Below are positions 34,566 to 64,000 of a stretch of DNA of 64,000 nucleotides, one piece after another. The stretch lies in NCBI RefSeq assembly GCF_000300515.1, contig NZ_AMSI01000015.1:62001-126000 (forward strand). The letters are read 5' to 3'. Numbering within the stretch: position 1 is the first letter of the stretch; each line of letters opens with the position of its first letter. The stretch is from Nitratireductor indicus C115 (GTDB taxonomy: Bacteria; Pseudomonadota; Alphaproteobacteria; Rhizobiales; Rhizobiaceae). Below the pieces are notes generated by a model that saw only the letters and a list, made by a program, of their open reading frames with translations, was not told the origin of the DNA and ran no database searches. A program made the position numbers and the translations under genes.

Positions 34566-34610
34566 TGGAGCGGGCGATGAGATTCGAACTCACGACCCCA
34601 ACCTTGGCAA
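34566..34610 (-). other. 3' fragment of tRNA-Gly(GCC): ICE attachment site (att half)
   Basis: Read on the minus strand, these 45 bases match the 3' part of a tRNA-Gly from the anticodon loop (TTGCCAA) through the anticodon-stem strand GGTTG, the variable region, the T-arm (GTGAG-TTCGAAT-CTCAT), the acceptor strand CGCCCGC and the encoded TCCA. The bases to the right do not continue the 5' half, so the gene is cut at the first base of the anticodon loop. A tyrosine integrase starts 258 bases away, so this is the displaced att copy. An intact tRNA-Gly is expected at the right end of the element, outside the window. Confidence 0.85.
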
Positions 34611-34751
34611 CCCGTCCGGGCAGTTTTCGCTCCAGCAAGTATTAAACCGCAAAACTACGAAAAACCCCTATACCTCAATAACTTACGTTGACACCCTTTC
34701 CGCCGGGCATACGCTTGTTATGCCGTGGATTTCCGTTCTGCTGCTTCCCCC

Positions 34752-34790
34752 CTGCTTCCCCGGCCATGCTGCACCTGCCCGGGGAAGCAG
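34752..34790. repeat. 12-bp perfect inverted repeat upstream of the integrase
   Basis: CTGCTTCCCCGG (34752-34763) pairs exactly with CCGGGGAAGCAG (34779-34790) across 15 bases. Together with the tRNA fragment it occupies most of the roughly 420-base gap between the Rieske gene and int; I see no gene there. It could be a terminator of upstream transcription or an integrase/excisionase arm site. Confidence 0.5.
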
Positions 34791-34867
34791 ATTCGGCGGA
34801 TCGCGCGCGCCTCCTCCGTAGCGATCGACCGAACCGAAGGAAAAGCAGAATTTGAAGGATTGACACA

Positions 34868-36172
34868 ATGCCGAAACTTACAAAGAGACTCGTCGACGCG
34901 CTGGAGCGCGATCCCAACCGCGATGTGTTCGTTTGGGATACGGAGGTGCGCGGGTTCGGCGTGCGGACGAAGCCGTCCGGAACGAAGACCTTCATCATCC
35001 AGTATCGAAACGAGGAGCGCCGCACGCGCCGGTTAGTGATCGGGCAGTATGGTGTTCTCACGGTGGAGACGGCCCGCGATCTTGCCAAGAAGAAGCTGGC
35101 ATCGGTGATCGACGGCGCCGATCCCTCGCAGGAACGGCGGGCCGCCCGCGAAGGGATGACGGTGGCCGAGGTCTGCGACTGGTATCTGGAAGAGGCCGAG
35201 GCCGGGCGGCTGCTCGGGAGAAACAGGCGTCCCATCAAGCCCTCGTCGGTGGCCGGTGATCGCAGCCGTATCGAGCAGCACATCAAGCCGTTGATCGGAA
35301 CGCGCGTCGTCGCCCATCTGAAACTGGCCGATATTGAGCGCCTCCAGGCCGACATCGCCGTCGGCAGGTCGGCGCGGGAACGCCGGGCCGGGCGCGGCGG
35401 CCAGACGTCGGGCGGCGCGGGCGTGGCCGGGCGCGCTATCAGCACGCTTCGAAGCCTGCTCAATCATGCCCGCCGGCTCGGGATCATCGAACAGAGCCCT
35501 GCGAACGGCGTTCGGGTCATCGCCTCAAACAAGCTGAAACGGCGTCTGAGCGCGGGCGAGGTCCGGCACCTTGGCAAAGTCATGAAGCAGATGGAGCGCG
35601 AAGGCGAGCATCCGACCGGCCTCGCGGCCATCCGCGTCATGCTGCTGACCGGCTTCAGGCGGATGGAAGTGCTGGCAATGCGCAAGGAGTGGGTAGAGCC
35701 GGACAACAATTGCGTAGCCTTCCCCGACACCAAGTCCGGTGCGCAGATGAGGGCGGCCGGTGACGCCGCGATCATGGAACTGATGAGCCAGGGGCAGCGC
35801 AGCACGTCGCCCTATGTCTTTCCCGCCGATTGGGGCGACGGTCATTTCATCGGGGTCGTGCGTGTCCTCGACCGGGTGTGCGCCCGAGCCGGTCTGGAGA
35901 ATGTGACGCCGCATGTGCTGCGCCACACCTTCGCCAGCATAGCGGCCTCGCTGGGGTTTAGCGAACTTACGATCTCGGGCCTGCTCGGGCATGGGCCGAG
36001 AGGGGTGACACAACGCTATGTCCACCTCGATGCCGCTCTCATGATCGCTGCCGATCAGGTCGCGGCTGAGATCGCCAGACTACTCGAGGGAGGTGAGGTC
36101 TTGTCTATGAAGGAAGCAAAGCGTCTTCGGTATTCGCAAGATGTCAGAGCTGCGATGTTTCGCTGTGTATAA
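34868..36172 (+). CDS. int: Tyrosine-type site-specific integrase of the ICE
   Basis: A 434-residue phage-type integrase of the DUF4102 (P4-like) class. The N-terminal arm domain is seen in WDTEVRGFGVRTKPSGTKTF, and the catalytic residues in the C-terminal half are R264 (TGFRRMEVL), K289, H349-x2-R352 (HVLRHTF), H375 (LLGHG) and the nucleophile Y384 (QRYVHLD). P4-type integrases commonly use tRNA 3' ends, consistent with the tRNA-Gly fragment beside it. It reads away from the att site into the element. Confidence 0.95.
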   Translation: MPKLTKRLVDALERDPNRDVFVWDTEVRGFGVRTKPSGTKTFIIQYRNEERRTRRLVIGQYGVLTVETARDLAKKKLASVIDGADPSQERRAAREGMTVAEVCDWYLEEAEAGRLLGRNRRPIKPSSVAGDRSRIEQHIKPLIGTRVVAHLKLADIERLQADIAVGRSARERRAGRGGQTSGGAGVAGRAISTLRSLLNHARRLGIIEQSPANGVRVIASNKLKRRLSAGEVRHLGKVMKQMEREGEHPTGLAAIRVMLLTGFRRMEVLAMRKEWVEPDNNCVAFPDTKSGAQMRAAGDAAIMELMSQGQRSTSPYVFPADWGDGHFIGVVRVLDRVCARAGLENVTPHVLRHTFASIAASLGFSELTISGLLGHGPRGVTQRYVHLDAALMIAADQVAAEIARLLEGGEVLSMKEAKRLRYSQDVRAAMFRCV

Positions 36173-36206: not shown

Positions 36207-38060
36207 TTATGTCGTAGTTGGTTCGTCCTCATCGGAACATTCAGGACCTTCCGGAATGCCGACAAACTCTCGTATCTCCCGTTCGTCCAACGTCTCGTGC
36301 TCAAGCAGGCGGCGGGCGGTCCGCTCAAGCAACTCTCGGCGTCCCGCGAGCAGGTCCACGGTCCGGTTAAAGTTATCGTCGACGATCCGGCGCACCTCCT
36401 CGTCGACGGTTGCCGCCGTCTCGTCGGAATAGCCGCGCTCCTGCGGCCCGTACCAGGACTGGTCGGTGGCGAGGAAGGAGCGCCTGTCCTTCTCCAGCGC
36501 GACATGGCCGAGCTTCTCCGACATGCCGTAGCGGGTGACGATGGCGCGGGCGATGTCGGTGACCTTGGCAAGGTCGTCCGCCGCGCCGGTGGAAAGATGT
36601 CCGAACACGATCTTCTCGGCTGCGCGACCGCCGAGAAGGACTGCCATCTTGTTCTCCAACTCTTCGCGCGTCATCAGGAAACGGTCTTCGGTGGGGCGCT
36701 GTATCGTATAGCCTAGCGCGCCGATGCCGCGCGGAATGATCGAGACTTTGTGGACCGGATCGACGCCGGGCAGCGCCATGGCCACCAGCGCATGCCCCAT
36801 CTCGTGATAGGCGACGATCTCGCGTTCCTTCGGATTAAGCAGCCGGTTCCGCTTCTCAAGGCCGGCGACGATACGCTCGACGGCGTTGTTGAAATCCTCC
36901 ATCGTCACGGCATCCGCCTTACGGCGGGTGGCAAGCAGCGTGGCTTCGTTGACAAGATTGGCGAGGTCGGCTCCCGTGAAGCCGGGGGTTAGCGCCGCGA
37001 TTTTTTCCGGTTCGGCGTCCGGCGCAAGCTTCGCCTTCTTCAAGTGCACGTTCAGGATTTGCACGCGGCCGTGTTTGTCCGGCCGGTCGACGAGAACCTG
37101 CCGGTCGAAACGACCCGCGCGCAGCAAAGCCGGGTCTAGGATTTCTGGGCGGTTGGTTGCTGCGAGCAGAACAAGGCCCGTGGATGAATCAAAGCCGTCC
37201 AACTCGACAAGAAGCTGGTTCAGCGTCTGCTCCTTTTCGTCATGCCCGCCTGCCATCGGGCCGATGCCGCGTGCGCGGCCGAGCGCATCGAGCTCGTCAA
37301 TGAAGATGATGGCGGGCGCCTTGGCACGTGCCTGCTCGAAGAGATCGCGCACACGCGCGGCGCCGACGCCGACGAACATCTCGACGAATTCCGAACCCGA
37401 GATAGAGAAGAACGGCACGCCCGCTTCGCCGGCGACGGCTTTTGCAAGCAGTGTCTTGCCGGTGCCGGGCGGACCGACGAGCAGAATGCCCTTCGGCATA
37501 CGCCCCCCTAGCCGTCCATAGCCGTCCGGGTCTTTGAGGAAGTCGACAATCTCCTTGAGTTCGTCCTTGGCCTCGTCGACGCCGGCGACGTCTTTGAAGG
37601 TTACGCCGGTGTCGGACTGGACATAGACCTTGGCCTTGGATTTGCCGATCTGCATGAGACCACCCCCCAATCCTCCGGCACCCATCCTCCGGAGCATGAA
37701 CATCCAGACGCCGACGAACAGCGCGACCGGGACGATCCACGACAGAAGATCGCGCAGGAATGTACTCTCGATCTGCCCGGTGACGACGACATCCCGCTCC
37801 AGGAGCTGACGCGCCAGATCCGGCTCTACTCGCGTGGTGATGAACATTTGGCGGCCGTCGACCGGCTCCTTAAATGTTCCCTGGATGAAGCGGTCCGATA
37901 CCGCCACTTCCGCAATCACGCCCTCGTCGAGATAGGTCTCAAACTGACTGTAGGGAATCTGCACGACCTGCGTGACGGTCGTGAACACATACTGGAAGAG
38001 CATGAAGATGAAAAGCGCTGCAATCCAGTAGCCGATATTGAACTGGGTCTTCTTGTTCAT
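36207..38060 (-). CDS. ftsH: FtsH, membrane AAA+ zinc metalloprotease (island copy)
   Basis: A 617-residue membrane protease that unfolds and degrades damaged membrane and soluble proteins. Membrane helices lie near residues 8-28 and 106-124. The AAA domain has Walker A GPPGTGKT (196-203), Walker B IIFIDE (251-256) and the second region of homology with [19 protein letters not shown]. The zinc site is HEMGH (419-423) instead of the more common HEAGH. The start with MNKKTQ at 38060 places the first helix normally; the long upstream extension is out of character. It is the last gene of the heat-shock-type operon starting with hsp20 at 40753. Presumably a second copy besides a housekeeping FtsH. 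Confidence 0.95.
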
Positions 38061-38173
38061 CTCCGTGACAATCCCCTCGAAAGAACGGCGATTGTTTGAC
38101 TGATGCCTACGGCCGGTGGCTTCCCTGCAGGCGGAGAATACTGGCCCGGCACGAAGCCGGGCCAGTGAATGGC

Positions 38174-38533
38174 TCAAGCGGTCGAATATGGCCGCCCCGG
38201 CGTCGACCAAAGACTGCTGGCGGCAACGAACGCGATCACCAGACCCGCCACGACATGCGCAATAGTCGCTGCGTCGAGGTGTGCAAAGCTCAGCAACCAC
38301 GGGGCAATGATCGCCCACAGGCCGAGCCCAAGATTTGTCCATTCTTCGAGCTCATAGAACGCAACCAGCGCGATGCTGGCGATGATCGCGACGGCTGCGC
38401 CAACAATCCAGGCGTTCCAGGCCGCATACGGCTCAGCCGTATAGCCGAGATACCACGGACTAAGCGCAAGACCCAGGCCGACGATGATGTTGATGACATC
38501 GAAAGCCGACCGATTTTCGAAGTACTTCAGCAT
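38174..38533 (-). CDS. SPW-repeat membrane protein
   Basis: A 119-residue integral membrane protein with four hydrophobic helices and two copies of the SPW-type motif (LALSPWYLGY and AIIAPWLLSF). The family's function is unknown. Its place beside ftsH and hsp20 recalls the small HdeD-type membrane proteins of stress-tolerance islands, although the fold family differs. It lies 33 bases downstream of the omega-like gene and 113 bases upstream of ftsH. Confidence 0.8.
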   Translation of the reverse strand: MLKYFENRSAFDVINIIVGLGLALSPWYLGYTAEPYAAWNAWIVGAAVAIIASIALVAFYELEEWTNLGLGLWAIIAPWLLSFAHLDAATIAHVVAGLVIAFVAASSLWSTPGRPYSTA

Positions 38534-38565: not shown

Positions 38566-38862
38566 TCAGTGGATCGTCCCGGCGTGATCCGGGACGTCAG
38601 AATGACCGATGCGAAGCCGATCCCTGCCGGGATCAATCCGCAGCGGTCGCCGCTGCCCGACACGGAAGGGCGCAAGTTCCTCATCCGTGAAGGCGCCGGC
38701 GGCGATCTCGTGAAGTGCGAGGTCCTGTGCCGGCAGGTCTCTCCTGTCGATTCGAGGCTCCTTTCCGGCTTTCAGTGCGCGGCTGCGCATGGCGGCAGCC
38801 AGCGTCAGCGCAAATCTGTCAGGCAGGACCTGCTGGCTATCGAAAACAACAAAAGGGTCCAT
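38566..38862 (-). CDS. RNA polymerase omega-subunit-like protein
   Basis: A 98-residue protein resembling RpoZ. The signature PDRFALTLAAAMRSRALKAG (residues 14-33) matches the omega helix (NRFxLxLxAAxRAR), and DLALHEIAAGAFTDEELAPF corresponds to the second conserved segment (VALREIAxG). Omega assists RNA polymerase assembly and ppGpp binding. ATG 38862 has an AGGTGG ribosome site; ATG 38874 overlaps the upstream gene by ATGA. The C-terminal 30 residues are not recognisable. A mobile accessory omega is unusual. Confidence 0.65.
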   Translation of the reverse strand: MDPFVVFDSQQVLPDRFALTLAAAMRSRALKAGKEPRIDRRDLPAQDLALHEIAAGAFTDEELAPFRVGQRRPLRIDPGRDRLRIGHSDVPDHAGTIH

Positions 38863-38870
38863 GATCCACC

Positions 38871-39599
38871 TCATGCCGCTTCTTTCCGCGACTGGTTCTC
38901 CGACACGTCGCGCTCGAGAGCGAGCAGGGCCTGCTCCACTTCGTCGAGCCTGGAGGGCCGTCCGTTTTCGGGCATGCCTTCGTTGGTCGCCTGATCGATC
39001 AGGTATTCGGTGTAGGCCCAGTTCATGAGAATCGAGCGTTTCGCGTCCAGCGACAAAGTACGATCGCTGACTATTTTCATAGGCGCAGCCCAGTTCGCGG
39101 ATCCGTCGGGATCGTTGCGGTTGGCGGCACCGATCATGGCGCGGCCATAAGTTTCCGAAAGCCGCGACAGGCCCAGCCGATCCAGTGTCGAATCCGAGAA
39201 CGTGCGGCTTGCCCGCCTGTCATCGTCCGTCTCGTTTTTCCTGTCCTGCTCCATTGTCTGAACCCTGTATTGAAGACCCTGACGTTCGGCATAGCGAACA
39301 GCCTGGTCGAGTGTCGGGAAGCACAACTCGACCTGCTGCAAGGTATCCTTGCTTCCGGTGTAGCCCATCAGCGGCTCTATGAAGGACGCGCTGCGGGCCT
39401 CGAACACCAGCTTCCAGCCGTTCCGCGCAGGCGCCGATGTGGTTGCGGAGCGCGATGGCCTGAAAATACGCGCGACCGCGTCGTCGGGAAATACAGACCG
39501 CCCCATGCCCAGCGGCGTCCGCCGGTTGTCGTTGGCTCTTGTGTGGCGACGATGAGCATTTGTGTTGCCGCCGGGCTTGTCGTTGACTTCCATCTCCAT
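38871..39599 (-). CDS. NDUFS4-like (ETC complex I subunit) protein with extra C-terminal domain
   Basis: A 242-residue protein. The centre (about 40-115) matches the ETC complex I/NDUFS4 domain: ARIFRPSRSATTSAPARNGW, then EPLMGYTGSKDTLQQVELCF and a segment ending AVRYAERQGLQYRV. The C-terminal 60 residues (LSLDAKRSILMNWA, then RLDEVEQALLALERD) resemble the small protein at 41484-41828. Normal alphaproteobacterial NDUFS4 is about 100 residues, so this is a fusion. ATG 39599 is chosen over 39605 because of spacing from GGAGG. It overlaps the omega-like gene and follows hsp20, so it belongs to the heat-shock-type operon. Confidence 0.75.
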   Translation of the reverse strand: MEMEVNDKPGGNTNAHRRHTRANDNRRTPLGMGRSVFPDDAVARIFRPSRSATTSAPARNGWKLVFEARSASFIEPLMGYTGSKDTLQQVELCFPTLDQAVRYAERQGLQYRVQTMEQDRKNETDDDRRASRTFSDSTLDRLGLSRLSETYGRAMIGAANRNDPDGSANWAAPMKIVSDRTLSLDAKRSILMNWAYTEYLIDQATNEGMPENGRPSRLDEVEQALLALERDVSENQSRKEAA

Positions 39600-39627
39600 A
39601 GTCATGCCTCCATCCGTTGGCGACGGA

Positions 39628-39667: not shown

Positions 39668-40180
39668 TCAGCTGTTGATGGCGATACGCCTGACCTGCGA
39701 CTGCGCCTTCTCGGTCTTGGGAAGGACGAGGTTGAGCACGCCATTCTTGAACCTAGCGTCGATCTTGTCCTCGACGATTTCCGTGCCGACCGGAATGCGA
39801 CGCTCGAAGCGACCGTAGATCCGTTCGGAGAACTGCTTCTCCTTGTCTTCGGTTTCGGAGCGCTTCTCGCCGCGCAGCGTCAGCACGCCATCATCAAGCA
39901 GGACTTCGATGTCCTTTTCCTCGAGACCGGGCACCTCGGCGGTTATGCGGATCTCCTTGTCGGTCTCGGAGATTTCAACGCTCGGCCATCCTGCTCCGAA
40001 TCCGGACAGAGCGCCAAGAGCCGGCAGGTTTCGGTCAAAGGAACGAAAGACATCATCGAACAGCCGGTTCACTTCGCGATGCAGCGACAGGAACGGGTTA
40101 CGCTCGTCCTCACGATAGACGGTGGGAGCCTGGCTGGTGCTCGTGTTGCGGCCCCATGGAATAAGGTCACGTACGTTCAT
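39668..40180 (-). CDS. hsp20: Hsp20/alpha-crystallin small heat-shock protein (class A-like)
   Basis: A 170-residue holdase chaperone. The alpha-crystallin domain spans about residues 60-160 (WPSVEISETDKEIRITAEVP to NGVLNLVLPK), with the GVLTLRGEK strand. The N-terminal region (NPFLSLHREVNRLFDDVFRS) is typical of HspA-like island proteins. The C-terminal I-x-I motif appears as RRIAI. ATG 40180 gives proper spacing from AAGGAGA; ATG 40186 is nearly on top of it. It is the second gene of the heat-shock-type operon. Confidence 0.95.
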   Translation of the reverse strand: MNVRDLIPWGRNTSTSQAPTVYREDERNPFLSLHREVNRLFDDVFRSFDRNLPALGALSGFGAGWPSVEISETDKEIRITAEVPGLEEKDIEVLLDDGVLTLRGEKRSETEDKEKQFSERIYGRFERRIPVGTEIVEDKIDARFKNGVLNLVLPKTEKAQSQVRRIAINS

Positions 40181-40224
40181 GGTCATTCTCCTTTCTGTTC
40201 TCGATTGTGCACAGCTTTGCCGTT

Positions 40225-40273: not shown

Positions 40274-40753
40274 TCAGGCTGCGATCTTCTCGGCGGTGTG
40301 CGTGTTGGCTTCGATCCGCGCCGGTGTGGCTTCGCTGGTGATCTCGATCCGGCGCGGCTTCATCTCTTCGGGGATTTCGCGCTTGAGTTCGATGGTCAGC
40401 AGCCCATTGACCAAGCTCGCGTTCTCAACCCGCACATGGTCGGCCAACTGGAAGCGGCGCTGGAACGAACGCCCGGCAATGCCGCGGTGGAGATACTCGA
40501 CATTGTCGTCACCCGACTTCTGGCCGGCGACGATCAGCAGGTTCTGCTCCTGCGTAATCGTCAACTCGTCCTGGCTGAAGCCGGCCACCGCCATGGTGAT
40601 GCGGTAGTCGTCCTCGCCAAGCCGGGCGATGTCATAGGGAGGCCAGTTGTCGATGCTCTCTACGCGGTTTGCGGCTTCGAGCGCGTGCAGCATTCGGTCG
40701 AAGCCAACGCTCGACCGGAACAGGGGAGTAAAATCGAAAGTCGTGGTTCTCAT
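40274..40753 (-). CDS. ibpA: Hsp20 small heat-shock protein (IbpA-like)
   Basis: A 159-residue IbpA/HspH-type holdase. The N-terminus MRTTTFDFTPLFRSSVGFDR and the alpha-crystallin domain (DDYRITMAVAGFSQDELTIT to NGLLTIELKRE) are characteristic of class A rhizobial sHsps. ATG 40753 follows GGAGGATGTGGCT and is preferred over an upstream in-frame ATG. It is the first gene of a six-gene minus-strand operon (two hsp20, NDUFS4-like, omega-like, SPW, ftsH) preceded by a CTTGAAA/ACCAGAT promoter. Confidence 0.95.
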   Translation of the reverse strand: MRTTTFDFTPLFRSSVGFDRMLHALEAANRVESIDNWPPYDIARLGEDDYRITMAVAGFSQDELTITQEQNLLIVAGQKSGDDNVEYLHRGIAGRSFQRRFQLADHVRVENASLVNGLLTIELKREIPEEMKPRRIEITSEATPARIEANTHTAEKIAA

Positions 40754-40839
40754 AGCCACATCCTCCTTGAAGCAACATGGGTACAAGATGGTCCGGTTCA
40801 CCCGGGCGCCACCCCTTTTTTGGCAGCGGCGCAGGATCG

Positions 40840-40868
40840 ATCTGGTTGCGCGGTTTTTCGGTTTCAAG
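40840..40868 (-). promoter_or_regulatory. Sigma-32-type (RpoH) promoter of the hsp20-ftsH operon
   Basis: On the minus strand CTTGAAA (40868-40862), a 15-base spacer and ACCAGAT (40846-40840) match the groES promoter at 42034-42062 almost exactly. CTTGAAA is the RpoH -35 consensus; the -10 is a divergent relative of CCCCATnT. It lies about 90 bases before the ibpA-like start. The rest of the roughly 440-base gap up to the usg gene holds no gene I can support. Confidence 0.65.
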
Positions 40869-41192: not shown

Positions 41193-41471
41193 TCAGTGAA
41201 TGGATATGATCCCATCGACCGCCTTCCACTCGGAAGGCTGGATTAACCGATGGTGGGCGATGCTCACCGAGTGCAGCGCGCCCTCCAACGTCTCGGTCCA
41301 GTAGTCAAGAAAGCCCCTCAATTCAGGAAACCCAGGCGCCAGATCGTAGTCCTGCCAGACATAGACCTGCAGCAAGCTCGGGTGATCCGGCAAGTGATAG
41401 TGGATCTCTGCCGTGGTCAGGCCGTAGCCATCCATCTGCATGCGAAATTCGCGACTGACGATTGCTGCCAT
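41193..41471 (-). CDS. usg: Usg-family protein
   Basis: A 92-residue cytoplasmic protein matching the Usg family (first described upstream of trpF in Caulobacter). Recognisable segments are FRMQMDGYGLTTAEIHYHLP, DHPSLLQVYVWQDYDLAPGF and SVSIAHHRLIQPSEWKAVDG. No biochemical role is established. Copies are usually chromosomal and single; here it sits between heat-shock genes on a mobile element. It follows the 41484-41828 gene by 12 bases on the same strand. Confidence 0.85.
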   Translation of the reverse strand: MAAIVSREFRMQMDGYGLTTAEIHYHLPDHPSLLQVYVWQDYDLAPGFPELRGFLDYWTETLEGALHSVSIAHHRLIQPSEWKAVDGIISIH

Positions 41472-41483: not shown

Positions 41484-41828
41484 CTATGCGTCCAGCCTTT
41501 CCCTTTCGCCCGCCGAATGCCGGACAACTCGCTCGCGATCGCTCGCATCCCGGTCGAGCCGGCGCAGCGCATCCATGATGTCGTCGAAGGCCACCGGCTT
41601 CTGCGCGCCCGGCGGCTGACGCAAGGCAGGCATCGAATCCACCGCACAGGCATCTGACGCCCATGACGACAGGATGGCGCGCTTCTCGCCTCGGTCGAGC
41701 GTGGCGTCACGCAGTACGTCGTCGGGATGCCGGTAGTGGCGGGCCGGCGAGAGCAGCCGGTCGAGCGCGATGTCGTCGGCCTGCGGCGCGAGCGAGGGAA
41801 TGATCGTCGAAAAAGCGGTTCGGCCCAT
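41484..41828 (-). CDS. Small protein sharing the C-terminal domain of the NDUFS4-like protein
   Basis: A 114-residue protein of unknown function. Its middle (ATLDRGEKRAILSSWASD, then AFDDIMDALRRLDRD) aligns with the C-terminus of the NDUFS4-like protein at 38871 (TLSLDAKRSILMNWA, then RLDEVEQALLALERD). Both genes lie in the stress island, so the domain is probably a helical interaction module. ATG 41828 follows AGGAGGAATACG. It is the upstream partner of usg and diverges from groES. Confidence 0.6.
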   Translation of the reverse strand: MGRTAFSTIIPSLAPQADDIALDRLLSPARHYRHPDDVLRDATLDRGEKRAILSSWASDACAVDSMPALRQPPGAQKPVAFDDIMDALRRLDRDASDRERVVRHSAGERERLDA

Positions 41829-41989
41829 CGTATTCCTCCTTCCGTTGTTGCCGTTCCGGAACCCCATGTCGATCAAGTTTCGACCCCTTAAATCCGAGGC
41901 GACGATCGTGAGATTTTGTTCGATCGGTAGGAAAATTCAAGTCCTGTCGCGACCAAGTGGGCGCGACTTTAGCTCATGATTCCATGGCA

Positions 41990-42033: not shown

Positions 42034-42062
42034 CTTGAAATCGAAAAACGCCAAAACCAGAT
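42034..42062 (+). promoter_or_regulatory. Sigma-32-type (RpoH) promoter of groESL
   Basis: CTTGAAA (42034-42040), 15 bases and ACCAGAT (42056-42062) match the promoter before the ibpA-like gene with the same spacing and nearly the same spacer start (CGAAAAAC). It lies about 105 bases upstream of groES. Confidence 0.65.
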
Positions 42063-42538: not shown

Positions 42539-44176
<1,638 letters not shown>

Positions 44177-47227: not shown

Positions 47228-48151
<924 letters not shown>

Positions 48152-48162
<11 letters not shown>

Positions 48163-55230: not shown

Positions 55231-55233
55231 GGC

Positions 55234-55521: not shown

Positions 55522-55541
55522 GATGTCCCCCTTCCGGCCCG

Positions 55542-56318: not shown

Positions 56319-58840
56319 GGCATGATCTCCTGTGGGTCGAATTCGAGGGCTTCGGTGAGGTCGAGGACCGGCGCCGGCGCTTGCGGCGCGGGTGTTTGAG
56401 GGGCGAGTGCGACGGCGATGTTGGTGAGGTTGGGAATGAGATCGGCCGCCCATTCGACGCCGCGCGCGGTTAGCCACGCGGCGAGGAAACCGTCGCGGCC
56501 ATGTTCGGCGAGGATGTCGGCGATCAATGCCTGGTCGGACTTGGAGGAAGCCGCGCAGAGCGCCAGGCCGACTTCGGACAGGCCCAGCTCGAACAGCCGG
56601 TTTCCCCGCCGGCTCTGGCAGTAGTAGTCCCGCTTGGGGATGGCGCGGGCGAGGATCTCGATCTGCCGGTCGTTCAGGCCGAACCGCCTGTAGATCGCGG
56701 TAATCTGCGGCTCGACGGCGCGATCGTTGGGCAGGAGCAGCCGGGTCGGGCAGCTTTCGATGATTGCAGGCGCGATCGTGCTCTTTTCGAGCTGGGCGAG
56801 CGATTGCGTGGCGAAAACGACGCTGGCGTTCTTCTTCCTCAGCGTGACCAGCCATTCGGCCAGTTGCTTGGAGAAGGCAGGATCGCCGAGCGCCAGCCAG
56901 CCTTCGTCAATGATTATCATCGTCGGGCGACCGTCGAGGCGGTCGGCGATCCGGTGGAAGAGATAGGCGAGGACGGCCGGCGCCGCGCCGGTATCGAGCA
57001 GCCCTTCAGTCTCGAAGGCCACGACGGAAGCATCGCCGAGGTTTTCCGCCTCCGCGTCGAGCAGCCGCCCATAGGGGCCGCCGACGCAATAGGGCTGGAT
57101 GGCGAGCTTGAGGTCGTTGGACTGGAGCAGCACCGACAGGCCGGTGATGGTGCGCTCCTCGATCGGGGCGGACGCGAGCGAGGACAGCGCCGTCCAGATA
57201 TGCTCCTTGGCCTCGGGCGTGATGGTGACGCCTTCGCGCTGCAAGATCGCTACGATCCAGTCCGCCGCCCAGGCACGATCCTGCGTCTGCTCGATGCGAG
57301 CGAGCGGCTGGAGCGAGACCGAGCCGTCGGCGCTTTCGGTCAGCCGGCCGCCGAGGTCATGCCAGTCGCCGCCCATCGCCAAGGTGGCGACCCTGATGGA
57401 GCCCCCGAAATCGAACGCGAAGATTTGCGATCCCGCGTAGCGGCGGAATTGCAAGGCCATGAGCGCCAGCAGCACGCTCTTGCCGGCGCCGGTCGGGCCG
57501 ACCATGAGCGTGTGGCCAACATCGCCGACATGAAGTGAGAGCCGGAAAGGGGTCGATCCTTCGGTCCTGCCATAGAGCAGCGGGGGTGCGCCGAAGTGAT
57601 CATCCCTTTCCGGCCCCGCCCACACGGCGGACGAAGGAACCGTGTGAGCAAGGTTGAGCGTCGAGATCGGAGGCTGACGCACATTGGCGTAGGCATGGCC
57701 CGGCAACGAGCCGAGCCAGGCGTCGACGGCGTTGACCGTCTCGACCATGACGCTGAAATCGCGGGACTGGACGACCTTCTCGACCAGCCGCAGCTTCTCG
57801 TCGGCGCGGCGGGCGTCCTCGTCCCAGACCGTGACGGTCGCGGTGACATAGGCGATGCCGGCCACGTCCGCGCCGAGTTCCTGCAAGGCCATGTCGGCGT
57901 CGAGCGCCTTGTTTGCGGCATCGGTGTCGACGAGCGCCGATTGCTCGTTCGTCATCACCTCTTTCAGAATGGCGGCGATGCTCTTGCGCTTCGCAAACCA
58001 CTGGCGGCGGATTTTCGTGAGCAGCCGAGTCGCGTCCGTCTTGTCCATCAGGATGGCGCGGGTCGACCAGCGATAAGAGAAAGCCAGCCGGTTGAGGTCA
58101 TCGAGCAGGCCGGGCGTGGTGACGCTCGGAAAGCCGGTGACGGTGAGGATGCGCAGATGGGCGGAGCCGAGGCGCGGTTCGAGGCCGCCGGTCAGCGCCT
58201 CGTCGGCGAGCAGCGCGTCCAGATAGATCGGCGTTTCCGGCACGCGCACGCGATGCCGTTTGGTCGAGACGGTCGAATGGAGATAGGTCAGCGTCTCGGC
58301 ATCGGTGAGCCAGCGGCACTCGGGCATGAAGCCGTCGAGCAGCGCCAGCACGCGGTCGGTGCGGTCGACGAAGCCGCGCAGCAGCTCGTGAGGGTTGACC
58401 CCGGAGGTTTCGCGGCCCTCGTAGAGCCAGCTCTCGGCGCGGGCGGCCTCCTCGGCCGGGGGCAGCCAAAGGAAGGTGAGGTAATAGTCGGAGACGAAGT
58501 GGCTGCCTTCCTCCTCGAAATCGGCCTTCCGTTCGGCATCGACGAGAGCGGATGCGGGATCGGGAAAGACATCGTTCGGATAGGTGCCGGCCTCGGACCG
58601 CTGCGCCTCGACGAAGATCGCCCAGCCCGATCCGAGACGGCGGAAGGAATTGTTGAGGCGTGCGGCGACGCCGACTAGCTCGGCCGCGACCGCGGAGTCG
58701 AGATCCGGGCCGCGGAACTTCGCGGTGCGCTGGAAGCTGCCATCCTTGTTCAGCACGACGCCCTGACCGACCAGCGCCACCCAGGGCAGGTAGTCGGCGA
58801 GGCGGGCGGCGGTGCGGCGATATTCTGAGAGGTTCATCAT
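56315..58840 (-). CDS. trbE: TrbE, VirB4-like T4SS ATPase
   Basis: An 841-residue ATPase with the family start MMNLSEYRRTAARLADYLPW, a CagE/TrbE N-terminal domain, Walker A GPTGAGKS (about 448-455) and Walker B MIIIDEGWLAL. It drives pilus assembly. Full length, with no visible defect. It starts 11 bases after the trbD stop; a second ATG one codon downstream is possible. Confidence 0.96.
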   Translation of the reverse strand: MMNLSEYRRTAARLADYLPWVALVGQGVVLNKDGSFQRTAKFRGPDLDSAVAAELVGVAARLNNSFRRLGSGWAIFVEAQRSEAGTYPNDVFPDPASALVDAERKADFEEEGSHFVSDYYLTFLWLPPAEEAARAESWLYEGRETSGVNPHELLRGFVDRTDRVLALLDGFMPECRWLTDAETLTYLHSTVSTKRHRVRVPETPIYLDALLADEALTGGLEPRLGSAHLRILTVTGFPSVTTPGLLDDLNRLAFSYRWSTRAILMDKTDATRLLTKIRRQWFAKRKSIAAILKEVMTNEQSALVDTDAANKALDADMALQELGADVAGIAYVTATVTVWDEDARRADEKLRLVEKVVQSRDFSVMVETVNAVDAWLGSLPGHAYANVRQPPISTLNLAHTVPSSAVWAGPERDDHFGAPPLLYGRTEGSTPFRLSLHVGDVGHTLMVGPTGAGKSVLLALMALQFRRYAGSQIFAFDFGGSIRVATLAMGGDWHDLGGRLTESADGSVSLQPLARIEQTQDRAWAADWIVAILQREGVTITPEAKEHIWTALSSLASAPIEERTITGLSVLLQSNDLKLAIQPYCVGGPYGRLLDAEAENLGDASVVAFETEGLLDTGAAPAVLAYLFHRIADRLDGRPTMIIIDEGWLALGDPAFSKQLAEWLVTLRKKNASVVFATQSLAQLEKSTIAPAIIESCPTRLLLPNDRAVEPQITAIYRRFGLNDRQIEILARAIPKRDYYCQSRRGNRLFELGLSEVGLALCAASSKSDQALIADILAEHGRDGFLAAWLTARGVEWAADLIPNLTNIAVALAPQTPAPQAPAPVLDLTEALEFDPQEIMP

Positions 58841-58850
58841 CGCGCGCGCC

Positions 58851-59132
58851 TCACACCGACAGGTGGCCAGGCACGCGCAGATGGCGGCGCGCGACCTCAA
58901 CGAAGAGGGGATCGCGCTTCGCCGCCCATACGGCTGCGAGATGACCGAGCGCCCAGATCAGGATGCCGGCGAGCCAGAGTTGGAGACCGAGCCCCACGGC
59001 CCCGGCCACGGTGCCGTTGAGGATCGCCACGGAACGCGGCGCACCACCCAGCAGGATGGGTTCGCTGAGAGCGCGGTGAACCGGGGCGGTGAACCCCGGC
59101 ACGGCGTCGAGCTGTTCGAGGAACGCCGCCAT
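58851..59132 (-). CDS. trbD: TrbD, VirB3-like T4SS membrane protein
   Basis: A 93-residue protein with the conserved TrbD opening (GFTAPVHRALSEPILLGGAP) and two membrane helices. Its start overlaps the trbC stop. It works with the TrbE ATPase. Confidence 0.92.
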   Translation of the reverse strand: MAAFLEQLDAVPGFTAPVHRALSEPILLGGAPRSVAILNGTVAGAVGLGLQLWLAGILIWALGHLAAVWAAKRDPLFVEVARRHLRVPGHLSV

Positions 59133-59461
59133 CAGATCACCGCCCCGCCGCCGAACGAGAAGAAGGACAGGAAGAAGGAGCTGGCGGCGAAGGCGATCGA
59201 AATGCCGAAGACGATCTGGATCAGCCTGCGAAACCCACCGCCGGTATCGCCGAAGGCCAGCGTCAGGCCGGTGACAATGATGATGATGACGGCCACGATT
59301 TTCGCCACCGGCCCCTCGATGGATTCGAGGATCGACTGAAGCGGGGCCTCCCAGGGCATGGAGGAGCCCGAGGCCAGTGCCGGCGAGGTCAGGAGCGCGA
59401 CCCAGGTGAAGGCGGCGGCGGTTGCGATATGGCGGCGGACGCGGAAGGCACGACGGATCAT
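59132..59461 (-). CDS. trbC: TrbC, VirB2-like pilin precursor
   Basis: A 109-residue pilin with a long signal peptide (ending SPALASGS), then the mature sequence SMPWEAPLQSILESIEGPVA and two hydrophobic helices. This is the conjugative pilus subunit. It overlaps trbB by ATGA. Confidence 0.93.
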   Translation of the reverse strand: MIRRAFRVRRHIATAAAFTWVALLTSPALASGSSMPWEAPLQSILESIEGPVAKIVAVIIIIVTGLTLAFGDTGGGFRRLIQIVFGISIAFAASSFFLSFFSFGGGAVI

Positions 59462-60456
59462 GCGGGGTCTCCTGTTTGGTCGGTGGGGATGGGGTCTGGA
59501 AAGGCGGGGGCGAGCCGGTAGTCGCCGTCGGCGCCGAGGCCCTCGACGCGGGCGAGTTCGGCAAGCCGGCGCGCGGACCCGCGGCCGGAGAGAACGGCAA
59601 CGAGGTCGATGGTCTCGGCGATCATCGCGCGCGGGACCGTGACCACGGCCTCCTGGATGAGCTGCTCGAGACGGCGCAGCGCGCCGATGGCCGAGCCGGC
59701 ATGGATCGTTCCGACGCCGCCGGGATGGCCGGTTCCCCACGCTTTCAGGAGGTCGAGCGCCTCGGCGCCGCGCACTTCTCCAATCGGGATGCGGTCGGGG
59801 CGCAGGCGCAGAGAGGACCGCACGAGATCCGAGAGCGTCGCCACCCCGTCCTTCGTCCTCATGGCGACGAGGTTCGGCGCGGCGCATTGCAGCTCGCGCG
59901 TGTCCTCGATGATGACCACGCGGTCCTGCGTCTTGGCGACTTCCGCCAGCAGCGCATTGGTGAGCGTGGTCTTGCCGGTGGAGGTGCCACCCGCCACCAA
60001 GATATTGGCGCGGGAGGCGACGGCCTCGCGCAGCGCCGCAGCCTGGGCGTCGGCCATGATCCCGGCGGCGACGTAATCGTCGAGGGTGAATACCGCGACC
60101 GCCGGCTTGCGGATGGCGAAGGTCGGCGACGTGACAACGGGAGGAAGGAGGCCCTCGAACCGTTCGCCGCTCTCCGGCAACTCCGCCGAGACGCGCGGCG
60201 CGCGGGCGTGGACTTCGGCCCCGACATGATGGGCGACAAGACGAACGATGCGCTCGCCGTCCTCTGCGGTCAGCCGCTCGCCGGTGTCTTCCAGTCCTCC
60301 GGCGAGGCGATCGACCCAGATGCGCCCGTCGGGGTTCAGCATCACCTCGACGATGGAGGGATCGCGCAACAGGTCCGAGATGGCAGGCCCGAGCGCGGTG
60401 CGGAGCATGCGCGCGCCACGTTCGATCGTTGCCTGTTTGCGATTTTGGCCAGCCAT
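59458..60456 (-). CDS. trbB: TrbB, VirB11-like T4SS ATPase
   Basis: A 332-residue hexameric traffic ATPase with Walker [10 protein letters not shown], the Asp box [12 protein letters not shown], Walker [14 protein letters not shown] and the His box [12 protein letters not shown]. It is the first gene of the trb operon. The 302-base stretch upstream (60457-60758) up to the toxin-antitoxin genes has no gene I can support and presumably holds the trb promoter. Confidence 0.96.
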
Positions 60457-60758
60457 CTCGTCCCCGTTTCCGGGGAGGAGGGCGAAGGCGGTCCCCGGAT
60501 GGGGATGACTAAAAGAACGGCAAAACGGGCCGATTCAACAAGTTTCGGTCGTAGTAGTAGTGCAGCGCAGTAATACAGGAGAACGGCGGAATCGGATCGC
60601 GGCGAGAACGTGCTGCCGGCCCTGTAGCGGGCGAATCAGTCGGTGGGCCGAAATGGATAATCCAGCCGCCGCGACAGGCCGGACGTCCTGGCGCGGCCCG
60701 AAGAGGCGATGGCCGGGGGTCTTCGAGCCGGCGCGCAGTCCCGCGATGCGTCAGGCCG

Positions 60759-61118
60759 TCAAGCGGCTGCGCTCACGTCGAAGTCGAAATGGATGTTCTC
60801 GTAGGGAAATTCCACGCCGCTTTCGGTGCGGTCGATGACGCCGGCATTGATGAGCGTGGTCACGTCCCGGTGGACGGCCTGCACGTCGCGGCCGACGCGC
60901 CGGGCGACCTCGCGGATCGACAGCCCGCCTTGCCCGGCAAGCGCCTTGACGATGGCAAGGCGGGAAGGGGCGAGAACGCGGTGCATGTCCTCGTAGCTGC
61001 CGAAATTGAGGCAGGGTTGAACATCGACGTGCTGACCGGCGAGCACCTTCCTGCTGGCCGCGGCGATCCTGCTGCGGATTTCAGTCATGCCACCCAGGCG
61101 AACGGTCAAGGTCTTCAT
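60759..61118 (-). CDS. TumA-type antitoxin / HTH DNA-binding protein (HVO_A0114-like)
   Basis: A 119-residue protein with a winged HTH (LAIVKALAGQGGLSIREVAR, then RVGRDVQAVHRDVTTLINAG) and the C-terminal segment VEFPYENIHFDFDV. It matches the antitoxin partner of TumE-type toxins in size and gene order. It overlaps the toxin gene by ATGA, so the two are translated together. It probably autorepresses the pair. Confidence 0.75.
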   Translation of the reverse strand: MKTLTVRLGGMTEIRSRIAAASRKVLAGQHVDVQPCLNFGSYEDMHRVLAPSRLAIVKALAGQGGLSIREVARRVGRDVQAVHRDVTTLINAGVIDRTESGVEFPYENIHFDFDVSAAA

Positions 61119-61396
61119 GCCAGCATCCTTTCCATGTCGCGCTCGAAAGCGGTCAGAAGCGCCTCCAGCGTGGTGAACTCGAACGGTTCCTCTCGCTCGC
61201 CGATGTGGCGGTGATCGCCCTTGCCGCGCTCATTGTCGTAGCGAAGAATACATTCTCCGCGCACCACGAGGGCGAGGCGGTATTTGAAGCCGTGGCCGCT
61301 GCCGGGAACCGGGGAGGGCACCTGCCAGACCACGATTTCATAGAAGGCATCTTCGCTGAGTGACGTGCGCTCCTTGGCGATCAATACCGCATCCAT
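61115..61396 (-). CDS. TumE-type toxin (DUF6516 family)
   Basis: A 93-residue protein with the family core DAFYEIVVWQVPSPVPGSGH followed by FKYRLALVVRGECILRYDNE and GDHRHIGEREEPFEF. ATG 61396 has a GGGGA site 7 bases upstream and is preferred to ATG 61423. With its overlapping HTH partner it forms a type II toxin-antitoxin pair that could stabilise the ICE after excision. Confidence 0.7.
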   Translation of the reverse strand: MDAVLIAKERTSLSEDAFYEIVVWQVPSPVPGSGHGFKYRLALVVRGECILRYDNERGKGDHRHIGEREEPFEFTTLEALLTAFERDMERMLA

Positions 61397-61487
61397 GTTG
61401 TTCCCCATAACAGCGGTGTCCATGCGTTGTCAATGAGAACATCACCCTGCCAGACGCCTGCAAGCATCCGGGGTGGTCGCCCAGCCC

Positions 61488-61928
61488 TCAACGGAGGTCA
61501 TCCACACTGCCTTCAGCGGCAGGCTTCGCGGCGATGTCGTCGGGGATCTCGCTGAGGAAGCTGTTGCCCTGCTGGAGCCGTAGGCCGAGCGTCTGGACGA
61601 AACCGTCGAACCGCTTCAGACCCCTGGTCTGGGCTGCCGCGTTCTCCTCGGGCGGGAGCTGCGGGGTGACGGTCAGCCAATGCCGGATGAACAGCGCCAG
61701 CGTGTCGGCGGTCAGCCGCATATCGCGTTCGAGCCGTGCCGTCTGGCGCGACAGGCGATCGAGCCGGCGCGTGAAGGCGGCCTCGCGTATGTCCTGGGCG
61801 TCGGGCGACAGGAAGGAGGCGATGGCCGCCTCGGCCACGGCCGAGCGCGACAGCTTGCGGCGATCGGCGAGGTCGTTGAGCTGTCCGAGAAGCTCGGACG
61901 GAAGGGTCAGGCATAGTCGTTCGCGCAT
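61488..61928 (-). CDS. CopG/RHH-type DNA-binding protein beside traG
   Basis: A 146-residue protein with an N-terminal ribbon-helix-helix (RLCLTLPSELLGQLNDLADR, then KLSRSAVAEAAIASFLS) and a C-terminal helical segment with LFIRHWLTVTPQLPPEE. Such proteins accompany traG in alphaproteobacterial ICEs and may act at oriT or as a repressor. It lies 9 bases after the traG stop. Confidence 0.85.
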   Translation of the reverse strand: MRERLCLTLPSELLGQLNDLADRRKLSRSAVAEAAIASFLSPDAQDIREAAFTRRLDRLSRQTARLERDMRLTADTLALFIRHWLTVTPQLPPEENAAAQTRGLKRFDGFVQTLGLRLQQGNSFLSEIPDDIAAKPAAEGSVDDLR

Positions 61929-61937
61929 GGTCGATCC

Positions 61938-63941
61938 TCACATATCAATGCCGTCATTCGGGTCCATGGAGACCTGGCGGGCGAGACCGCGCATCTGGCG
62001 GCCCATGACCTGTCGCTGCCGGGCGCTGTCTTCCTGATCGTCGACGAGCAGGTGCTTGAACTCGTCCTCGGGTGCGGGCTCCTTCTTTTCGTGGACGATC
62101 TCGACATGCTGGGGCATGTCCGGTTCGCGGCGCAGGCCGGCATTGGCCTTGTCCTCTGCCTTCTTCCTCGCGGCCTCTTCGGCGGCCGCGACTAGCGCGG
62201 CATCGGGCGCGAGAGGCTTCAGCGCCGACCATCCATCGGGGCGCGCCGAGCTGGCGATCGTCGCCGGGTCTGGCGGCGGCAGGATGCGTTCGGTCAGGCG
62301 CGGGTCGATGTAATAGCGCGCCTTCTTCGCCCGGATCGGTGGGCTGCCGGCCACCATGACGATCTCGTCGTCGGGCGGGAGCTGCATGATTTCGCCGGGG
62401 GTGAGGAGCTGGCGGGCGGTCTCGGAGCGCGACACCATGATGTGTCCCAACCATGGGGCGAGGCGGCTGCCGGCATAGTTCTGCATTGCCTTCATCTCGG
62501 TCGCCGTGCCGAGCGCGTCGCTGACCCTTTTCGCTGTCCTTTCGTCATTGGTGGCAAAGCTCACCCTGACGTGGCAGTTGTCGAGGATGGCGTTGTTCTG
62601 GCCATAGGCTTTTTCGATTTGATTGAGGGATTGGGCGATGAGGAAGCTCTTGATCCCGTAGCCCGCCAGAAACGCCAGCGAGGACTCGAAGAAGTCCAAT
62701 CTGCCGAGCGCGGGAAACTCGTCGAGCAGCAGCAGAACGCGATGCCTGCGGTCCTGGGCGTGGAGGTCTTCCGTCAACCGGCGCCCGATCTGGTTGAGCA
62801 CGAGCCGGATCAAAGGCTTCGTCCGCGATATGTCCGAGGGCGGCACCACGAGGTAGAGCGTCGAGGGTTTCGGATCGGCGATGAGGTCGGCGATGCGCCA
62901 GTCGCAGCGCGAAGTGACGGCCGCGACCACCGGATCGCGGTAGAGGCCGAGAAAGCTCATGGCCGTCGACAAGACGCCGGAGCGTTCATTGTCCGATTTG
63001 TTGAGCAGCTCCCGCGCTGTCGAGGCGACGACGGGATGCGGCCCGGCCTCGCCCAGATGGCGTGTCGCCATCATGGCGTCCAGCGTGGCCTCGATGGTGC
63101 GGCGCGGATCGGAAAGGAAAGCAGCGACCCCCGCGAGGGTCTTGTCCTTTTCCGCATAGAGGACGTGCAGGATCGCGCCGACCAAAAGCGAATGGCTGGT
63201 CTTTTCCCAATGCGACCGTTTCTCCAGCGAGCCCTCGGGATCGACCAGCACGTCGGAGATGTTCTGGACGTCGCGCACTTCCCACTCGCCGCGCCGCACC
63301 TCGAGCAAGGGATTGTAGGCCGCCGAGGCTACATTGGTCGGATCGAAGAGAAGAACGCGGCCGTGCCTCGCGCGGAAGCCGGCGGTGAGCTGCCAGTTCT
63401 CGCCCTTGATGTCATGGACGATGCAGCTTCCCGGCCAGGTCAGCAGGCTCGGGACCACGAGCCCGACGCCCTTGCCCGATCGCGTCGGCGCGAAACATAA
63501 GATGTGCTCGGCGCCGTCATGCCTCAGATAGTCGCGCTCGTAGCGGCCGAGGATCACGCCGTCCTGGCCGAGAAGACCGGCGCTTTCGATCTCAGACCGC
63601 TCTGCCCAGCGCGCCGAGCCGTAAGTGTCGATGTCTGACGCCTCGCGGGCGCGCATCACCGACATGGTGATGGCGACGGCGATGGAGAGGAAGCCGCCCG
63701 AGGCCGCGATGATGCCCCCCTCCGCGAAAATGCGCGGGGCATAGGCTTCATAGAAATACCACCACCAGAACAGCGCCGGCGGATAATAGACCGGCCAGCC
63801 GGCGACCTCGAACCAGGCGGGGCCGAGCTGAGGCTGGAAGCCGAGCCGGAAGGCGACCCATTGTGTGCCGCTCCAGACCGAGACGAGGACGATCAGGAAG
63901 ACGATGCTGATCTGGCCCCAGAGGATTTTCGTGCCGGACAT
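61938..63941 (-). CDS. traG: TraG, VirD4-type coupling protein
   Basis: A 667-residue T4SS coupling ATPase with two or three N-terminal membrane helices, Walker A PTRSGKG (ERDYLRHDGAEHILCFAPTR region) and Walker B LLLLDEFPALG. It brings the relaxase-DNA complex to the mating channel. The C-terminal 100 residues are charged and variable. Full length for the family. Confidence 0.96.
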   Translation of the reverse strand: MSGTKILWGQISIVFLIVLVSVWSGTQWVAFRLGFQPQLGPAWFEVAGWPVYYPPALFWWWYFYEAYAPRIFAEGGIIAASGGFLSIAVAITMSVMRAREASDIDTYGSARWAERSEIESAGLLGQDGVILGRYERDYLRHDGAEHILCFAPTRSGKGVGLVVPSLLTWPGSCIVHDIKGENWQLTAGFRARHGRVLLFDPTNVASAAYNPLLEVRRGEWEVRDVQNISDVLVDPEGSLEKRSHWEKTSHSLLVGAILHVLYAEKDKTLAGVAAFLSDPRRTIEATLDAMMATRHLGEAGPHPVVASTARELLNKSDNERSGVLSTAMSFLGLYRDPVVAAVTSRCDWRIADLIADPKPSTLYLVVPPSDISRTKPLIRLVLNQIGRRLTEDLHAQDRRHRVLLLLDEFPALGRLDFFESSLAFLAGYGIKSFLIAQSLNQIEKAYGQNNAILDNCHVRVSFATNDERTAKRVSDALGTATEMKAMQNYAGSRLAPWLGHIMVSRSETARQLLTPGEIMQLPPDDEIVMVAGSPPIRAKKARYYIDPRLTERILPPPDPATIASSARPDGWSALKPLAPDAALVAAAEEAARKKAEDKANAGLRREPDMPQHVEIVHEKKEPAPEDEFKHLLVDDQEDSARQRQVMGRQMRGLARQVSMDPNDGIDM

Positions 63942-63956
63942 GGGAGGCTCCTTTCG

Positions 63957-64000
63957 TCAAAGGCCGAGGTCGCGCTTGCGGCCGAGCGACCAGTCGATGC
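63957..64000 (-). CDS. 3' end of probable relaxase (VirD2/TraI type), cut by window edge
   Basis: Only the last 13 codons are visible on the minus strand, ending IDWSLGRKRDLGL and a stop at 63957-63959. A DWSLGRKR-type tail upstream of traG is typical of the DUF3363/VirD2-like relaxases of these ICEs. Identification rests mainly on position. Confidence 0.5.
   Translation of the reverse strand, partial: IDWSLGRKRDLGL

Follow-up and report, generated by a model that had tools for sequence, protein, structure and literature searches.

The genes of the island

The stretch of DNA analysed here, referred to below as the window, comprises 64,000 nucleotides of the 4.99-Mb draft genome of Nitratireductor indicus C115 (GCF_000300515.1, 73 contigs) and corresponds to positions 62,001 to 126,000 of contig NZ_AMSI01000015.1 (C15), which runs 11.4 kb beyond the right edge of the window and then ends. 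From position 34566 onwards it holds a tRNA fragment, an integrase, a block of heat-shock, protease and other genes, and a set of conjugation genes. We consider it likely that these together represent an integrative conjugative element (ICE) of the RlxS/Trb type at tRNA-Gly(GCC), and that this element carries a heat-inducible protein-quality-control island which belongs to a widespread mobile family of the alphaproteobacteria. The block consists of the following genes and features.

36207..38342, minus strand: open reading frame (ORF) of an FtsH protease (TIGR01241, 789.7 bits; HEMGH zinc and GPPGTGKT Walker motifs)
38174..38533, minus strand: SPW-repeat membrane protein (PF03779, E 8.7e-25)
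38566..38862, minus strand: omega2, a second RNA polymerase omega-like subunit without the MARVT N-terminus (PF01192, predicted fold, tree)
38871..39605, minus strand: NDUFS4L, the NDUFS4 domain of complex I plus a helical C-terminal part (PF04800; 8qby_Q, E 1.4e-25; structural model and Foldseek)
39668..40186, minus strand: Hsp20, second of a pair (PF00011)
40274..40754, minus strand: Hsp20, first gene of the operon, with its start codon within the ROSE fold (PF00011)
40747..40830, minus strand: ROSE RNA thermometer (Rfam RF00435, 57.3 bits against a cut-off of 45)
40840..40868, minus strand: sigma-32 (RpoH)-like promoter CTTGAA-N17-CCAGAT (pattern scan; same position in relatives)
41193..41471, minus strand: Usg-family protein (PF06233)
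41484..41876, minus strand: ORF of 130 amino acids resembling the C-terminal part of NDUFS4L (BLASTP E 4e-7, 29% over 69 amino acids)
42034..42062, plus strand: sigma-32-like promoter of groESL (pattern scan)
42167..42481, plus strand: GroES (PF00166)
42551..44176, plus strand: GroEL (PF00118)
44385..45977, plus strand: ORF of a DegP/HtrA-type protease (TIGR02037, 475 bits; GNSGG motif)
46025..47227, plus strand: NEW3-domain protein (PF10633)
47146..48162, plus strand: ABC transporter ATPase (PF00005)
48146..49105, plus strand: ABC-2 permease (PF12679)
49368..49499, plus strand: relic of htpG, first 45 residues (tblastn, 69% over 45 amino acids)

The homology of the FtsH ORF with most relatives begins at residue 72-92, and its true start is therefore probably near 38087; that of DegP probably lies 70-80 codons into the ORF. 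According to the coordinates, 8 nucleotides separate NDUFS4L from omega2 in the hsp20 operon and 32 separate omega2 from the SPW gene. The ORF at 41484-41876 has no Pfam match.

The integrative conjugative element

The island is embedded in the features of a mobile element, which are listed below.

34566..34610, minus strand: displaced 3' half of the native tRNA-Gly(GCC), the left attachment site of the ICE (45/45 nucleotides identical to the native tRNA of G003)
34868..36172, plus strand: P4-type tyrosine integrase (PF13356, Arm-DNA-bind_3; PF00589, Phage_integrase)
49735..50709, plus strand: LysR regulator beside the trb cluster (Pfam; 85% identity to its counterpart in the G009 ICE)
50703..61928, minus strand: DUF2274-trbI-trbG-trbF-trbL-trbK-(trbJ)-trbE-(trbD)-trbC-trbB, a TumE-type toxin pair and copG (Pfam)
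61938..63941, minus strand: TraG coupling protein (PF02534, E 1.3e-101)

ARAGORN found no complete tRNA in the window. The intact tRNA-Gly(GCC) of the genome sits on contig C18; it matches window positions 34566-34610 for 91% and differs from the fragment at four positions of the T-stem. In all eight congeners in which a tRNA-Gly locus was compared the T-stem is identical to that of the window fragment, whereas the intact tRNA-Gly of a further congener, G009, has the T-stem of the C18 type. Descent of the fragment from some other tRNA was rejected, as the five other tRNA-like matches compared represent tRNAs for Thr, Val and Arg.

The same kind of element is present in complete form in G009, a genome of two contigs, where it spans 118 kb within an otherwise collinear site. 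The 10.5-kb left flank of that element aligns with G003 as a single alignment of 87% that reaches the tRNA, and with G001, G006 and G007 in two to three pieces of 80-90% (a 57-nucleotide piece 91-100%) up to the tRNA. The order of the G009 element is: displaced native half (890546), integrase, LysR, trb, traG, relaxase, traF, rep, island and intact tRNA (about 1008625). Compared with the window, the identities are 52% for the integrase, 85% for LysR, 71-94% for the trb cluster and 88% for traG, and for the right part of the backbone they amount to 79% for the relaxase, 79% for traF and 69% for rep. Considering this layout and the tRNA halves, elements of this kind enter the tRNA-Gly gene, displace its 3' half and bring a replacement.

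Within the window Pfam identified trbI, G, F, L, K, E, C and B as well as traG, but gave no confirmation for trbD and trbJ. To the right of the window the backbone continues with an RlxS-like relaxase, a TraF peptidase, ParA, a rep protein and an rdfS-like helix-turn-helix gene (L004:7044-7382, called by eye). ICEs of this kind have been described for Mesorhizobium in a passage of PMC8627217, which also has tRNA-Gly as a reported target of Mesorhizobium ICEs. With ICEMlSymR7A and the Tn4371-type ICEs (RlxS relaxase, Trb pilus) the element shares the trb genes including trbK, traG, the RlxS-like relaxase, traF, rep, parA and the rdfS-like gene. It differs from them in its stress-island cargo and in its relaxase, for which RlxS is the best family with a score of 542 bits against a cut-off of 850. 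We therefore read positions 34566-64000 as one end of an ICE at tRNA-Gly(GCC), the vehicle being of a known kind.

The first-pass annotation of this DNA had listed the genes from the tRNA-Gly 3' fragment to the htpG relic, and all of these parts were recovered (Pfam, tblastn and the 45/45-nucleotide tRNA match). Its proposal of an ICE is borne out by the attachment-site halves and the conjugation backbone, and its trb/traG module stands except for the two genes without Pfam confirmation. The start at the tRNA fragment was confirmed; the end at 64000 is merely the edge of the window, as ICE genes continue in the last 11.4 kb of C15. A search for an intact tRNA-Gly to the right had been suggested: it is absent from C15, and an intact tRNA-Gly with the element-type half was found on C18.

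The other end of the ICE is thus not on C15, the second tRNA half being located on C18. To the left of the C18 tRNA-Gly (L005 1-12085) lie a second traG, a truncated relaxase, a transglutaminase, a second GroESL, of which the GroEL is 76% identical to that of the window, and a Fic gene. C18 was not kept as a plain continuation of C15, since the second traG and the truncated relaxase make a composite of elements likely; more than one element may lie between the end of C15 and the C18 tRNA-Gly.

Further copies of trbE are found elsewhere in the genome, on C26, C7 (two) and C38, with 63-95% identity to that of the window, which suggests several ICEs or remnants. An inverted repeat with CTGCTTCCCC arms occurs near both tRNA-Gly ends of the genome (window 34741-34790 and L005 11987-12035) and has no exact match in the G009 element. 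The helix-turn-helix protein and TumE-type toxin pair at 60759-61423, between trbB and copG, is probably an addiction module of the ICE. The left flank (window 1-34566) has no counterpart left of the tRNA-Gly in eight congeners or in the 10.5 kb of G009, except for 206 nucleotides at 70% in G002, and is perhaps another island.

Putative heat-shock control

At the head of the hsp20 operon, the ROSE fold (z-score -1.98) includes the start codon of the first hsp20 gene and some of its Shine-Dalgarno region. Scans of 13 further loci placed such an element right over an hsp20 start in 12; the details vary: L117 has a single hsp20, L105 has its hsp20 pair on the strand opposite to NDUFS4L, and L070 has ROSE elsewhere.

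The pattern CTTGAA-N17-CCANAT, which was chosen after the sites were known, has two matches in the window, one ahead of ROSE/hsp20 and one ahead of groES, and none in 100 shuffles. In 1.36 Mb of related sequence (loci L065-L134) there are 21 matches, and for 18 of them hsp20 or groES follows within 350 bp downstream; many of these loci are without an exact match. For comparison, a passage of PMC4843759 gives the RpoH1 motif as CTTGAA-N15-16-CCTATAT, and PMC4167512 contains the R. etli motif cTTGaa-N16-CgATaT together with the statement that, in R. etli, groES/groEL of plasmid pRet42f and two HSP20 genes go up on heat shock. The pattern CTTG-N16-CYTATNT with one mismatch was tried and dropped, as its five matches were scattered and none preceded hsp20 or groES. 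There was no exact match in the window to the controlling inverted repeat of chaperone expression (CIRCE), and the best site upstream of groES has five mismatches; therefore control by HrcA is not claimed. A sigma-70 promoter scan of 34500-51100 returned nothing. Neither the ROSE thermometer nor the two sigma-32-like sites had been reported in the first-pass annotation.

Distribution and mobility of the island

We have followed the island in a genus sample of 11 genomes and an order sample of 397 genomes, both including the genome of N. indicus C115 itself. In the genus, NDUFS4L is present in two genomes (G000 and G009), and the block thus does not occupy a fixed locus. It lies at the integrase end of the element in the window and at the tRNA end in G009. 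In the order, a long match of 61-67% identity was found in five other genomes (G142, G065, G221, G344, G015), a split match in G253, and weaker or partial matches in G309, G308, G181 and G352.

A wider set of loci was obtained by scanning one genome per species with the C-terminal part of NDUFS4L. This yielded 63 loci, assigned to the alphaproteobacteria by the species names in the record titles, several of which are interrupted by contig ends. Within 10 kb of NDUFS4L the following numbers of loci have the genes of interest: Hsp20 60, omega2 51, SPW 44, DegP 35, FtsH 35, GT4/GlgX 32, GroEL 23, Usg 20, KefB-like 17, ClpB/ClpK-type ATPase 13, TrxC 5 and NEW3/ABC 4. Conjugation genes were found at no fewer than five loci and an integrase at no fewer than three, both being lower bounds because the genes of the window itself served as queries. 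The control loci with chromosomal NDUFS4 measure just 1.9-3.3 kb each and therefore carry little information on wider gene neighbourhoods.

All or part of the core order Hsp20-Hsp20-NDUFS4L-omega2-SPW(-DegP)(-FtsH) is found again in Hyphomicrobiales and Rhodobacterales, in many cases together with Usg-GroESL and sometimes with a ClpK-like ATPase. More distant blocks occur in Phenylobacterium zucineum (with YbaL/KefB, DegP and GroESL) and Sphingomonas paucimobilis (with TrxC, ClpB, DegP and YfdX), and at one locus of Brucella pseudintermedia the core lies beside an integrase and tRNA-Gly(GCC). The block is also found on plasmids: NDUFS4L has matches in 106 records of PLSDB, and in 26 of these the match covers 80% or more of the query; those that are short or weak may represent ordinary NDUFS4. 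Annotated examples are those of Rhizobium sp. AB2/73, Mesorhizobium sp. B1-1-8, Pelagibacterium sp. H642, Rhizobium sp. Kim5 and M. ciceri. Six of the 106 records are Acinetobacter plasmids.

Near-identical copies are present in different genera. The NDUFS4L-omega2 segment is 98.7-99.4% identical at the nucleotide level among loci of Aquamicrobium (L099), Shinella (L101) and Mesorhizobium (L100, L102), and the gene of the ClpK-like ATPase shows 92.4-92.8% identity when the Rhizobiales loci L103/L111 are set against four loci of Rhodobacterales. These identities point to recent transfer of the block between genera.

The two halves of the block have a different relation to their relatives. The FtsH side of the block adjoins trbI in Aquamicrobium defluvii (L099) and Mesorhizobium microcysteis (L102). 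The stretch from GroES to the ABC permease shows 90-100% nucleotide identity to these two loci, whereas the genes of FtsH, NDUFS4L and Hsp20 show 68-84%, SPW 69% over 177 nucleotides and Usg 85-86%; omega2 has no nucleotide match there. The stretch from FtsH to the ORF at 41484-41876, in turn, is 86-98% identical to L072. Because the halves differ in this way, the block is a mosaic of two exchangeable halves.

Two further features of the related loci were observed. A ClpK-like ATPase of 926 amino acids (931 in L126) with a Cys-rich N-terminus is encoded in L103, L111, L115, L117-L121, L123, L124 and L126, with partial copies in L095 and L122; in Rhodobacterales and some Rhizobiales its neighbours are KefB and another NDUFS4 paralogue. 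Genes for a GT4 glycosyltransferase and an amylo-alpha-1,6-glucosidase often lie between groESL and the hsp20 operon (L065, L067, L079-L081 and others).

NDUFS4L and the second omega-like subunit

The first half of NDUFS4L has the NDUFS4 fold and the second half forms helices beyond the aligned part of the PDB matches (mean pLDDT, the predicted local distance difference test, 75.4). The N-terminal domain is shared with the NDUFS4 of alphaproteobacterial complex I; its structural match with Paracoccus 8qby_Q has 44% identity. The protein differs from that NDUFS4 by some 120 extra helix-forming residues, which resemble the neighbouring ORF at 41484-41876. The ratio dN/dS is 0.13-0.34 in six of seven pairs.

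The omega-like protein constitutes the novel point of the island. The window protein scores 25.9 bits with RNA_pol_Rpb6/omega (PF01192; cut-off 26), or 26.6 in the genome search, and its relatives pass the cut-off with 30.7 and 32.1 bits. In an omega survey of 61 genomes of the order, a second PF01192 match was present in three (G000, G015, G065), all of them carriers of the island, and three genomes were without any match. The housekeeping omega has the MARVT start, and an arginine at the position aligned with R52 of E. coli omega, a residue that we take to contact ppGpp (guanosine tetraphosphate), in 30 of 30 cases. Omega2 begins with M-D/N, mostly followed by P. Among 67 matches, some of which are one place counted twice, 51 passed the filter and represent 39 distinct forms: none has the MARVT start, 36 have P at position 3 and two have R at the R52 position. 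The 16 excluded matches comprise ten that are broken or partial and six intact ones that the filter missed (L048, L068, L097, L103, L107, L111); by eye, the latter also lack MARVT and R52.

A tree of 69 rows separates omega2 as a single group from the housekeeping omega (support 100/100), based on few columns and with bootstraps that had not settled. Its predicted structure has a mean pLDDT of 80.7, with block values of at least 84 for residues 1-70. RNA polymerase entries make up all of the 50 best-listed of 101 Foldseek matches (best E 2.6e-3), the matched chains being taken as omega by their length. Core positions are conserved across 31 sequences, and dN/dS is 0.13-0.36 in six of eight pairs. 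Omega2 thus shares core sequence and predicted fold with the housekeeping RpoZ; it differs by the lack of the MARVT start, the mostly replaced R52, its mobility and its location in a heat-shock operon. Omega2 occurs in 24 plasmid records, in 21 of which NDUFS4L lies beside it by coordinates; the other three are absent from the NDUFS4L matches listed.

A role of omega residues 2-5 in ppGpp site 1 is given in a passage of PMC7676912, where omega lacking these residues is reported with a ppGpp Kd above 100 uM in the absence of DksA, and a passage of PMC6416229 names the N-terminal MAR motif of RpoZ for ppGpp binding. Omega2 is accordingly predicted to be unable to build ppGpp site 1, and we infer that it may act as a heat-induced exchange subunit that blunts control by ppGpp. 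The variant M7 (deletion of residues 2-5 plus changes in beta-prime) binds ppGpp just about twofold worse according to the same paper, PMC7676912, which calls for caution against a simple reading of the omega2 N-terminus. Among the literature matches listed, as judged by title, opening of the abstract or passages, no paper deals with this gene block or with a second omega.

Proposed role and alternative explanations

The combined features suggest the following course of events. On heat shock the RpoH of the host would transcribe both operons, and the ROSE element would open at the hsp20 start codon. The Hsp20 pair would then hold unfolding proteins for refolding by GroESL, while FtsH and DegP would clear damage to membrane and envelope. 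Omega2 would serve as a heat-grade stand-in for the omega of RNA polymerase, predicted to be without ppGpp site 1, and NDUFS4L as a heat-grade stand-in for the NDUFS4 of complex I. We hold the reading as an island to be quite probable. The exchange step, with omega2 and NDUFS4L as replacement subunits, is its weakest part and is put forward tentatively. That omega2 would indeed replace the housekeeping omega during heat shock, giving a polymerase without ppGpp site 1 and a host transcription that is partly uncoupled from the stringent response, with a similar swap by NDUFS4L in complex I, is a rather doubtful proposition.

Several observations weigh against the proposal. The right attachment site is on another contig with at least one further ICE remnant beside it, so that the ends may bracket more than one element. 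The block decays: G009 has split copies of NDUFS4L and GroEL and no match for omega2, SPW or FtsH, ten of the 16 excluded among the 67 omega2 matches are broken or partial, and 12 of the 63 loci have no omega2 found near NDUFS4L. The omega2 of the window borders on the Pfam threshold (25.9/26), and the best of its Foldseek matches reaches an E-value of 2.6e-3; two Mesorhizobium omega2 (L127, L128) keep R at the R52 position; and dN/dS reaches about 1.1 in two of eight omega2 pairs and 0.82 in one of seven NDUFS4L pairs. Finally, the sigma-32 pattern was picked with knowledge of the sites and of a general consensus, and it (N17, CCANAT) differs from the RpoH1 motifs published in the passages cited (N15-16, CCTATAT).

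Some of these points could also be taken to mean that omega2 is a degenerate omega that does not bind RNA polymerase and has another role or none. The low sequence score and the ten broken or partial matches would fit, but all 50 best-listed Foldseek matches being RNA polymerase entries, the conserved core positions in 31 sequences and a dN/dS below 0.4 in six of eight pairs argue otherwise, and we regard degeneration as doubtful.

Alternatively, the block could have arisen by plain accretion, whereby individually useful heat-shock paralogues gather on ICEs and plasmids without a joint function, and omega2 and NDUFS4L are passengers between hsp20 and ftsH. The varying neighbours and decayed copies agree with this, as does the different history of the two halves with respect to L099/L102 (90-100% from GroES to the ABC permease versus 68-86% from FtsH to Usg, in nucleotides). 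Nevertheless, omega2 lies beside NDUFS4L at 51 of the 63 loci and in 21 of the 24 omega2 plasmid records, ROSE and promoter-like sites are shared between loci, and selection is mostly purifying; accretion therefore seems unlikely.

Relation to the transmissible locus of stress tolerance

The transmissible locus of stress tolerance (tLST), for which the names locus of heat resistance and locus of protein quality control are also in use, is the closest known system to which the island can be compared. The likeness of the gene set, put forward in the first-pass annotation, holds: both are mobile blocks of Hsp20, FtsH and DegP with a small membrane protein, and some relatives of the island share KefB-like, TrxC, YfdX or ClpK-like genes with the tLST. 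The placing of GroESL at the centre does not agree with the counts, as GroEL is found within 10 kb at 23 of the 63 loci against 60 for Hsp20, 51 for omega2 and 44 for SPW. Likewise, GroESL in the place of ClpG describes the window, which has two Hsp20 and no Clp ATPase (Pfam; tblastn with ClpB), but not the 13 related loci with a ClpB/ClpK-type ATPase.

In contrast to the tLST, the island is without the dna-hsp20-clpG core and has GroESL, Usg, NDUFS4L, omega2 and SPW in its place, under putative ROSE and sigma-32-like control. Pfam named no HdeD in the window, where the SPW protein is present instead. Since the defining core is absent, the island resembles the tLST but, by its gene content, falls outside it. 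That it is an alphaproteobacterial tLST which lost clpG is quite improbable: Hsp20, FtsH and DegP, the KefB-like genes at 17 and the ClpB/ClpK-type ATPases at 13 of the 63 loci, ClpK as the best family for the proteins of L103 and L117, and a Sphingomonas plasmid with YfdX, TrxC and ClpB near an NDUFS4 gene would be expected, but tblastn at E 1e-3 found no ClpB, KefB, TrxC or YfdX in the window or L004, the words NADH, SPW and groEL are absent from the main text of the tLST review (PMC8290217), and the ClpK-like proteins stay under the ClpK cut-off (1533 versus 1900).

Implications

The analysis names and orders a block that is now annotated as scattered entries such as 'ETC complex I subunit', 'subunit omega' and 'SPW repeat'. 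If the proposal is correct, stress tolerance would travel among the alphaproteobacteria, including isolates from legume nodules, as a regulated cassette, which would ship spare parts of RNA polymerase and the respiratory chain besides chaperones and proteases. A mobile second omega would then provide a natural reagent for the role of ppGpp site 1 outside E. coli.

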